From: Minisyncoccota bacterium
GTDB taxonomy: Bacteria > Patescibacteriota > Minisyncoccia > Minisyncoccales > Minisyncoccaceae
Length of the DNA: 48,776 nt
Reading direction: 5' to 3'
Assembly: GCA_028692555.1 (NCBI GenBank)
Contig: JAQUXE010000003.1
Location: forward strand, 1-48,776
Of this stretch, positions 47,643 to 48,776 are shown piece after piece. Numbering within the stretch: the stretch's first letter is position 1; the number at the start of each line of letters is the position of its first letter. A program made the translations under genes and the position numbers. The notes beneath the pieces were generated by a model. That model ran no database searches. It was given only the letters and a program-made list of their open reading frames with translations, and had not been told where the DNA came from.

Positions 47643-47676
47643 ATAATAAGCACATTGAAATTGTGTGGTGATCGAA

Positions 47677-48549
47677 ATGATTAATGGTTACAAAGAACTT
47701 GTGGATGTTGAGCTTAGGAGAATGAGGAAAAATGACAAGATCTCCAAAAAACTTTTACATGTATTGCTAATATTGGGATACTTTTTATTGCCGGCGAAGT
47801 ATAAAGCAGCAGCATTGCTTTATGGTTGGTTCAGGGAGGTTGATGATGTCATTGACCAAGAGAAGTGTCCTCCGAACGGATACGATATTGATTCTTATAT
47901 CGAACAAAAAGAATTGATATTAAAAGGAGTAAGTACAGTCCAATTGAAAGAAGATATTATGCTTTTCTCTGCTTTAAGAATCTTCTCTAAAAAGAAGATA
48001 GATTTAAGTCAGGAAATAAAAGATCTCTTTTGCGCAATGAAAACAGAATACCTTAACAGGGGTAAATTTGTAAAAAGAGAAGATCTTTATAGTAATATGT
48101 ATCTTCAGGATAGGGCTGCATTAACAATCCTTGCGAAATTCTATAGCAATGGGAAGAAGTTTGAAAAGTTGGATCAAATTCTTTTCAGATTTTTCACGAG
48201 GGTCGATTCTTTGTTAGATCTTAAAGAAGATCTTACAAGAGGATTTATTAATATCCCATTAGAGGATGCTATAGAAATGGGTATAGATATTCAAACTCCC
48301 GCAGTTGAAATTCTTAGGAATCATAAGTTCCAAGAATGGTACAAGAGGGAGGTTGAGGAACTGATAATCAGACACGCAAGAGTTTATAAAATATTAGAGG
48401 AACGACGAGATTTGTTTTTACTAAAAGTTATTCTTGATTCTCATAAGTTAGGAGATGTCTTGAATTATTTAAAAGTCCATCCCTCTTTTTTATTTTTTAA
48501 AAAAACAAGTATTTACATTAATAATGGGTTGATAAAAAATTTAATTTAA
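47677..48549 (+). CDS. Squalene/phytoene synthase family protein
   Basis: 290 aa from the ATG at 47677. The family's first Asp-rich motif is Asp56-Asp60 in WFREVDDVID, and the second is Asp177-Asp185 in RVDSLLDLKEDL followed by RGFINIP, like the D-x-x-x-D and gRxYLP segments of head-to-head prenyl synthases. YLQDRAALTILAKF fits the central helix. It is rather divergent, and no other isoprenoid or carotenoid genes are nearby. A longer GTG start at 47665 is possible; the ATG is preferred because GTGGTG then serves as the ribosome binding site. Likely joins two prenyl diphosphates; product unknown. Confidence 0.7.
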   Translation: MINGYKELVDVELRRMRKNDKISKKLLHVLLILGYFLLPAKYKAAALLYGWFREVDDVIDQEKCPPNGYDIDSYIEQKELILKGVSTVQLKEDIMLFSALRIFSKKKIDLSQEIKDLFCAMKTEYLNRGKFVKREDLYSNMYLQDRAALTILAKFYSNGKKFEKLDQILFRFFTRVDSLLDLKEDLTRGFINIPLEDAIEMGIDIQTPAVEILRNHKFQEWYKREVEELIIRHARVYKILEERRDLFLLKVILDSHKLGDVLNYLKVHPSFLFFKKTSIYINNGLIKNLI

Positions 48550-48557: not shown

Positions 48558-48567
48558 TTAAATACAT

Positions 48568-48642
48568 TCCGGTGTGGCGCAATGGTAGCGCGGTTGCCTG
48601 TTAAGCAATAGGTTGTAGGTTCGAATCCTACCACCGGAGCCA
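48568..48642 (+). tRNA. tRNA-Asn (anticodon GTT)
   Basis: Acceptor TCCGGTG/CACCGGA, D arm GCGCAATGGTAGCGC, anticodon stem GTTGC/GCAAT around CTGTTAA (anticodon GTT), variable loop AGGTT, T arm GTAGG-TTCGAAT-CCTAC, discriminator G and an encoded CCA. All stems pair, with one G-U in the anticodon stem. Confidence 0.96.
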
Positions 48643-48669
48643 AATTGTGTGTTCGGCGTTTGTTGCCTC

Positions 48670-48745
48670 GGCGCAAAGCGCCTCGGCACGCGCCCTGCGG
48701 GCGCTAAGGTCTGATTTTAAGAGGATTTGCCACGCTCCGCGTGGC
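48670..48745 (+). repeat. Three GC-rich hairpins with 3-nt loops
   Basis: GGCGC-AAA-GCGCC (48670-48682), GCGCCC-TGC-GGGCGC (48690-48704) and GCCACGC-TCC-GCGTGGC (48729-48745), all perfect stems. They follow the tRNA-Asn and are far richer in GC than the rest of the window. They resemble intergenic palindromic (REP-like) elements. No coding sequence is visible from 48643 to the end. Confidence 0.75.
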
Positions 48746-48776
48746 TCAAAAACCAATTCCCGTTCCCGCAAAATTC

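Follow-up and report, generated by a model that had tools for sequence, protein, structure and literature searches.

A GC-rich tail behind tRNA-Asn

The stretch of DNA analysed here (hereafter, the window) is a whole contig of 48,776 nt (G000:C13:1-48776) from an assembly of 480,681 bases with 94.8% completeness (G000). Genes for a ComEC-type competence protein, DnaG and RpoD, which mark the host as a bacterium, lie upstream of a tRNA-Asn gene, behind which three perfect palindromes with 3-nt loops are packed into 76 bp, beginning 27 bp past the tRNA (Table 1). Their 5-7-bp stems lie exactly where a first-pass annotation of the sequence had placed them. Because position 48,776 is the contig end, the feature is cut off, 134 nt past tRNA-Asn and 31 bp past the third palindrome. 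The whole window holds 85 stems of at least 5 bp with a 3-nt loop, and a stem G+C content of at least 0.8 is found in these three only. The odd base composition remarked on in the annotation is equally evident: the cluster has 66% G+C over its 76 bp, as opposed to 28-35% per kilobase in the window, and 76-nt stretches starting before position 48,560 peak at 54%. Folded as RNA, the tail (48640-48776) gives z = -2.57, with one of 200 shuffles equally stable, and an Rfam search of the window retrieved no known RNA family besides two tRNAs. Between rpoD and tRNA-Asn (47665-48549) there is a 294-aa frame with no Pfam match; in a genome of the same genus (G002), rpoD and the tRNA are ~150 bp apart.

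Table 1. Features at the tRNA-Asn end of the window
Feature	Position	Strand	Details
tRNA-Asn (GTT), target gene	48568..48642	+	ARAGORN, Rfam tRNA; 3' end is the chromosomal half of the putative attachment site
Serine recombinase gene, 3' end	48628..48774	-	48 codons open to contig end: ...ILRERELVFEPRGAWQILLKSDLSARRARAEALCAEATNAEHTIWLRW
Shared core CGGAGCC	48635..48641		Common to tRNA 3' end and element arms
P' arm of the putative integrated element (attL, tRNA side)	48635..48776		98% over 142 nt to L009:7826-7967
GC hairpin 1	48670..48682		GGCGC-AAA-GCGCC, perfect 5-bp stem, 3-nt loop
GC hairpin 2	48690..48704		GCGCCC-TGC-GGGCGC, perfect 6-bp stem, 3-nt loop
GC hairpin 3	48729..48745		GCCACGC-TCC-GCGTGGC, perfect 7-bp stem, 3-nt loop

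The tail as the probable edge of a serine recombinase element

On the minus strand, the tail reads as the last 48 codons of a serine recombinase, the only part of the gene carried by the window. Its stop codon sits inside the antisense tRNA-Asn, and the palindromes map to recombinase codons for EPRGAW and ARRARAEALCAEA. The homologues L012 and L048 terminate alike, the former in ...PKKSWQILYNLPAEARSAEATNSQHTIWLRG. Domains of large serine recombinases (Resolvase, Recombinase and zinc ribbon) are present in the relatives L009 and L048, the Pfam domains in L009 being Resolvase, Recombinase and Zn_ribbon_recom. Since the minus-strand frame is a recombinase C-terminus and relatives end in the same way, the feature corresponds to the element side of attL. 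A structured RNA tail of the tRNA, as had been considered, is not supported, since the stretch reads as the antisense 3' coding end of a recombinase; the other suggestion, the edge of a mobile island beside the tRNA, agrees well with the end of a serine recombinase element.

When the tail (48640-48776) was searched in 60 genomes, three matched, including its own. In G012, a genome of the same family but a different genus, it is 98% identical along its full 137 nt and precedes the start of a serine recombinase gene. In G002, its first 52 nt occur twice in opposite orientations, once after tRNA-Asn and once across a serine recombinase. The core letters are identical at the G012 junctions and in L010, L012 and L048, and in the latter three the distance from the core start to the first GC hairpin is 35 nt, as in the window. 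Crossover presumably takes place within the core CGGAGCC or at its edge. Collectively, sequence comparison supports the tail as the left end (attL, comprising tRNA, core and P' arm) of an integrated element belonging to a large serine recombinase family with tRNA 3' ends as insertion sites.

The contig end cuts the P' arm ~6 nt short of the inner boundary GGTTCG of several relatives. The contig probably ends here because an inverted repeat makes the assembly fork. No recombinase was found in G000 at E <= 1e-20, the contig ending inside the element, and the P arm of the G012 element was not found in this assembly either. The downstream DNA of G000 could not be placed: a probe from G003 gave a weak 38-nt AT-rich match that we do not trust. 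For these reasons, we infer everything inward of position 48,776 from relatives. The lack of a recombinase despite 94.8% completeness would also fit a decayed stump left after loss of the element, rather than the edge of an intact one. We consider this quite unlikely: no stop interrupts the 48 codons up to the contig end, the 98% match with a second host points to a recent arrival, and the contig breaks off close to where the arm has its inner boundary.

Filled and empty sites in relatives

The tRNA-Asn site could be compared between relatives. In G005, taken as empty, tRNA-Asn follows rpoD with no element arm behind it, and its end (...GGAGCC) is followed by AACCAGTGAGGGGTTC. In the filled site of G012, attL consists of tRNA-Asn...GGAGCC followed by AAATTGTATGTT, whereas attR consists of ...GTTCGGAGCC followed by AACCAGTGAGGGGTTC; the two junctions are on two contigs, and the DNA past attR resembles that after the G005 tRNA. 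Thus, filled and empty sites with a short shared core, as in large serine recombinase elements, are seen in the relatives G012 and G005. In G001, the first letters of the arm follow tRNA-Asn and the contig ends 9 bp in, while in G003 other DNA follows tRNA-Asn and the site looks empty. Four contigs end 0-4 bp past tRNA-Asn (G004:C56, G010:C6, G021:C3 and G022:C5; loci L084, L090, L094 and L095, respectively). The tRNA-Asn site seems to have been used repeatedly in the family. Contigs stop at tRNA-Asn across several genera and families, as if an unassembled element sat there. The tRNA-Asn of the site contains a group I intron (Rfam RF00028) in L091 (G012:C13) and L090 (G010:C6), with scores of 84.7 and 89.9 bits.

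A putative complete inverted attachment site upstream of the recombinase gene

The recombinase was searched in 196 genomes (own and relatives), 78 of which were positive at E <= 1e-20. From 150 matches listed, 79 loci were analysed, picked from the top and by length of contig; the other 71, mostly fragments or weaker matches, are outside the counts. In relatives with enough flank, the order reads tRNA - core - P' - recombinase gene - inverted P' - inverted core - inverted P - cargo - P - core - old downstream DNA, with the 3' end of the recombinase gene facing the tRNA. Because both the P' and the P pairs are inverted, the element would keep a complete inverted attachment site within itself. 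The sequences thus support an integrated form with a putative attL, attR and complete inverted P-core-P' site upstream of the recombinase gene.

An inverted P' of 44-171 bp (84-100% identical) brackets the recombinase in 42 of the 79 analysed loci, and four further loci (L044, L120, L122 and L127) are positive with a more distant inner arm. A convergent tRNA is found at the recombinase 3' end in 55/79 loci and on the 5' side in none of the 79. Where both features are present, the 3' arm enters the tRNA by 1-9 bp (32/35 loci) or ends short of it (3/35); the arm of L044 is just 86% alike and ends 40 nt short of the tRNA. One copy of the outer P pair (23-486 bp) borders the inner arm, and the other lies 1.3-8.9 kb further out, at the far end of the element. 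Of the P' loci, 25 have at least 1,500 nt of sequence past the inner arm; the pair was detected in 18 of these and was not found in the other seven. The overlap of P and P', that is, the core, is 3-19 bp long in 17 of the 18 loci and zero in L052. Among six further recombinase matches, which are outside the counts and the tree, two (L241 and L242) have an inverted arm; none was found in L240 and L243, with just 171 and 26 nt of upstream sequence, or in L244 and L245, with recombinases at 42-44% identity. One genome, G092, has 11 recombinase matches, and its loci L048, L054, L055, L056, L118 and L119 adjoin tRNA-Asn, -Arg, -Ala, -Leu, -Ile and second -Arg genes.

The inverted arm is confined to one group in a tree of 80 recombinases, being present in 46/52 loci of the group and in 0/26 loci outside it. 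The fork uniting the repeat-bearing group has support of 91/98, one of the two measures being below the threshold of 95. The group includes 10 loci that were not positive at first pass, four of them being those with a more distant inner arm, and the initial scoring needs seven changes on the tree. No arm was found in the available flank of six group loci (L021, L028, L032, L040, L116 and L121), the shorter side of which is 0-1,346 nt long; an 18-nt match in L116 was not counted as an arm. L125, a neighbour just outside the group, has no repeat in 8 kb of upstream flank. Contigs end within 950 bp of the recombinase in 28/52 group loci versus 4/26 outside the group. The 26 outside loci (L123-L124, L126, L128-L148, L085 and L086) have no inverted repeat, and 14 of them have a convergent 3' tRNA. 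Loci outside the group could represent an ancestral form with a single attP.

Distribution and spread

Pattern matches in GTDB genomes numbered at least 581, and the best 80 of these were analysed as a named sample, to which all counts in this paragraph refer. Inverted P' was found in 65/80 and outer P in 21/80 named loci; four of the loci repeat the first set, which leaves P' in 61/76, and one (L149) is the G012 locus. Four of the 65 positives show an arm of just 25-31 bp, at the contig end. Most of the 15 P' negatives have a short flank on one side; the exceptions are L207 (flanks of 1.5 and 9 kb) and L227 (9 kb on both sides, including a run of N). A tRNA was not predicted by ARAGORN in 14 loci, three of which gain an intron-bearing tRNA once introns are allowed, and Rfam group I introns are found in L156 and L162, which are further element targets. 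The sample includes L182, from AP024682.1, a record titled complete genome. L182, L191 and L222, in which the recombinase end meets a P arm and not a tRNA, were considered as circular forms; L182 and L222 rather resemble two elements in tandem, and in L182 the second recombinase is apparently broken. An origin of the inverted repeats in assembly errors (chimeric hairpins or misjoined repeats) is hardly credible, because, even though the named records are mostly MAG contigs and contigs often end at the repeat, similar boundaries are seen at many tRNA targets in records of unrelated projects, the repeat is present both in AP024682.1 and on a 1.16-Mb contig (G091:C1), and it is absent from all 26 loci outside one recombinase group.

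The named records, among the best 80 of at least 581 matches, belong mostly to Patescibacteria lineages. A few MAGs are labelled Elusimicrobia, Omnitrophica, Marinimicrobia, Bdellovibrio and others, possibly due to binning errors; related recombinases in L218, L219, L220, L221, L196 and L197 are labelled Chitinophagia, Marinimicrobia, Limisphaerales, Bdellovibrio and Elusimicrobia. Such recombinases reflect either cross-phylum transfer or binning errors. Between G000 and G012 the tail is 98% identical, whereas the RpoD proteins are 81% identical, and the P' arms of L010, L012 and L048, from families f1, f23 and f44, are 94-99% alike. Together, these observations argue for horizontal spread. 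Searches at E <= 1e-30 retrieved just one record (34%) among known phages and four (28-36%) among known plasmids; in IMG/VR, 11 contigs were matched, none above 64%.

Evolution of the arms

The two P' copies of an element are a median 99% identical (39 elements), compared with 81% between elements (29 alignable pairs), although within-element identity cannot be very low, since the arms were found by similarity. Pair by pair, the lower of the two within-element identities is above the higher of the two between-element values in 25 of 29 cases. Of the other four, L010/L012 nearly ties, and the remaining three involve L037, the 3' copy of which, unlike its 5' copy, is 95-96% like L055, L111 and L112. 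We infer that gene conversion, or inversion of the recombinase part between the arms, keeps the arms identical. On its inner side, the 5' copy ends in GTTC, GTTCG or GTTCGA/T in 18/42 elements, at the Gly-Ser-Asn codons of the recombinase. This inner end, common to elements with different tRNA targets, suggests one old duplication, the copies of which have been kept alike since. Near the core, P arms contain a motif close to GTTCGGATTTTGTTCA, with at least 11 of 16 letters matching in 21/37 arms versus 1.5% of shuffles, although the count is not an independent test, since the motif was picked by eye from the same sequences that were scored. In 17 of the 21 matching arms it lies 19-23 nt from the core. 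The motif may be a recombinase half-site.

A GC-rich hairpin recurs at the corresponding place in related elements, with differing stems. A GC-rich stem of at least 5 bp lies within 90 nt of the core in both copies of 33/42 P' arms, compared with 62/1993 random windows, a control not matched for noncoding DNA, and with 2/14 loci outside the group. In better controls, from noncoding DNA of these loci, hairpins occur in 26/290 intergenic windows and in 12/51 stretches after other tRNAs. They are also found on 13/33 P sides and in 15/26 leaders, so that the noncoding flanks of the element are hairpin-rich in general. The 33 stems represent 22 different sequences, and the two copies in L025 differ by a paired change (GGCGCTCCGCGCC versus GGCACTCCGTGCC). 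Thus, the hairpin structure recurs while its sequence does not.

These results bear on the possibility that the palindromes form a dispersed REP-like family, as proposed in the first-pass annotation, or serve as a terminator of tRNA-Asn. Such hairpins are not rare in the noncoding DNA of these loci, as the controls indicate, but both explanations are very improbable. Instead of the many genomic copies expected of REP-like palindromes, patterns of the three hairpins (17, 15 and 18 nt, with up to two mismatches) found one copy each in the 480,681-base assembly. The hairpins travel with the arm and not with the tRNA, as L009 has the same arm without a preceding tRNA, and T after the stems is modest (mean of 2.7 T in 10 nt). 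Each hairpin is thus a single occurrence in its own assembly, and nevertheless belongs to a structure that recurs in relatives, so that only one half of the refuting outcome named in the annotation applies. The early interpretation is accordingly retained in part: the mobile-island edge is supported, while the REP-like family, in this assembly, and the tRNA tail are not. Within the recurrent layout of the element, the hairpins play a minor part, and what appeared as an odd cluster turned out to mark the end of a recurrent mobile element in ultra-small bacteria.

Cargo

Among the 25 of 120 cargo families listed (from 80 cargo proteins), the commonest are radical SAM (5) and N6/N4 DNA methylase (4), followed by type I and III restriction domains, AAA ATPases and DpnI; an Adenylyl/Guanylyl and SMODS sensor domain and metabolic enzymes are listed as well. 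The G012 element carries a type III-like methyltransferase, and the L048 element a type I restriction protein together with a type I methyltransferase protein. Most cargo frames (63/77) point away from the inner site. Elements with arms common, almost unchanged, to genera and families of ultra-small bacteria carry cargo that includes restriction-modification systems.

Possible roles of the second site

Judging by the recombinase family, the element would integrate at the tRNA 3' end when the recombinase exchanges attP with attB, and excise by exchange of attL with attR. As a whole, the explanation that combines the attL edge in the window, the layout in relatives and attP x attB entry appears highly probable to us. 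The excised circle would hold two inverted attP sites splitting the recombinase part from the cargo part. Two uses of the second site appear most plausible to us: the recombinase part may be inverted between the two sites, or the recombinase may control its own gene by binding to the inner one.

As the use of the second site we tentatively prefer flipping of the recombinase part. Orientation, however, is strongly one-sided, which speaks against a flip: the tRNA is at the recombinase 3' end in 40/52 group loci and in 51/80 named loci (best 80 of at least 581). The reverse orientation, with the tRNA joined to the recombinase leader, was seen in 0/52 group loci versus 3/80 loci of the same named sample (L154, L163 and L174). 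These three loci, which speak for the flip, possibly represent the inverted state of the recombinase segment. Alternatively, they could be misassemblies, as the contigs end soon after the recombinase. Exchange between two attP sites is not expected of large serine integrases, which also speaks against a recombinase-made flip. In a broader formulation, which is conceivable but doubtful, the elements would form a widespread, Patescibacteria-centred class of flip-and-integrate machines with two inverted sites and one serine recombinase. The circle, laid out as in the 2-micron plasmid, would invert its recombinase part, a spare complete attP would be retained in the integrated state, and the class would represent a tRNA-specialised prokaryotic analogue of 2-micron that is based on a serine recombinase.

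Self-control of the recombinase gene is a possible, if uncertain, alternative. Here, the inner inverted site would be an operator at which bound recombinase represses its own divergent promoter, the arms would persist by passive gene conversion, and inversion would have no role; we regard this scenario as open to doubt. It fits the position of the inner site, which has the recombinase on one side and mostly outward-pointing cargo on the other, as well as the nearly fixed orientation, and there is precedent: intS of KplE1 is reportedly controlled from its attachment region. However, an operator needs tens of bp, while the duplicated arms are 44-171 bp (P') and 23-486 bp (P) long, and loci of the opposite orientation exist in the named sample (3/80 of the best of at least 581). 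It is rather unlikely that the second site simply persists in a passive way and serves no purpose.

Use of the second site for amplification is improbable. The excised circle would then amplify like the yeast 2-micron plasmid, inversion during replication switching the replication mode, an idea that we likewise consider a long shot. The layout is the same as that described for 2-micron (PMC6594588), with two inverted repeats with embedded sites splitting the circle into two unique parts, one of which holds the recombinase; but no replication gene is among the 25 of 120 cargo families listed (80 proteins), no circular form was seen, and the recombinase is of a different superfamily from that of 2-micron. 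We also considered, but did not retain, folding of a single strand into a duplex attP upon competence uptake: a serine recombinase cuts both strands, and the chromosome arms would be left with hairpin ends.

Paired inverted sites limited to one recombinase group, alike within an element and divergent between elements, pose a testable question, namely what an integrase gains from a second inverted attP. In addition, the elements may explain the frequent breaks of Patescibacteria contigs at tRNA 3' ends.

Comparison with known systems

A literature search found the paired-inverted-site layout in no title or abstract start, the subscription papers being mostly outside its coverage. The layout was thus not found described in the literature searched, which is of partial coverage, and later reports of tRNA targeting may exist. 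The main text of PMC10083194 contains no mention of tRNA, and that of PMC12455944, on gene exchange in Patescibacteria, none of recombinase, integrase or tRNA; the passages available from PMC12884075 do not state the integrase family that targets tRNA genes. That an integrase gene can terminate within the attachment site it uses has a precedent (PMC4701971).

Among the closest known systems are large serine integrases of the phiC31/Bxb1 type (PF00239-PF07508-PF13408), the domain order of which is the same here. Like those of phages and ICEs, the elements described here have a short core, cargo bounded by attL and attR, and empty and filled sites. They differ in that a further complete attP, in inverted orientation, precedes the recombinase gene, and in targeting tRNA genes. 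Streptococcal ICEs with a single serine integrase use a protein gene, rumA, as the target instead of a tRNA gene, and the portion of the source seen mentions no inverted copy of the site.

The 2-micron system is eukaryotic, depends on a tyrosine recombinase and is not known to integrate at tRNA genes. The predicted circle resembles it in outline through its paired inverted sites, for which no membership is claimed: two inverted sites bracketing the recombinase are seen in relatives as inverted sequence arms, and the recombinase is a serine one instead of the tyrosine recombinase Flp. In 2-micron the sites (FRT) recombine with each other; the sites here are putative ones. The yeast plasmid has 599-bp inverted repeats with embedded head-to-head recombination sites and encodes its own recombinase (PMC6594588).

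Finally, Islander-type islands have in common with these elements the tRNA target, the tRNA that is kept whole and tandem arrays. The Islander database is limited to tyrosine integrases, and serine recombinases were not known to target tRNA genes, according to the available part of the 2014 paper (PMC4383910). L009 and L048, by contrast, encode a serine recombinase, and the elements described here offer natural serine integrases aimed at tRNA genes.
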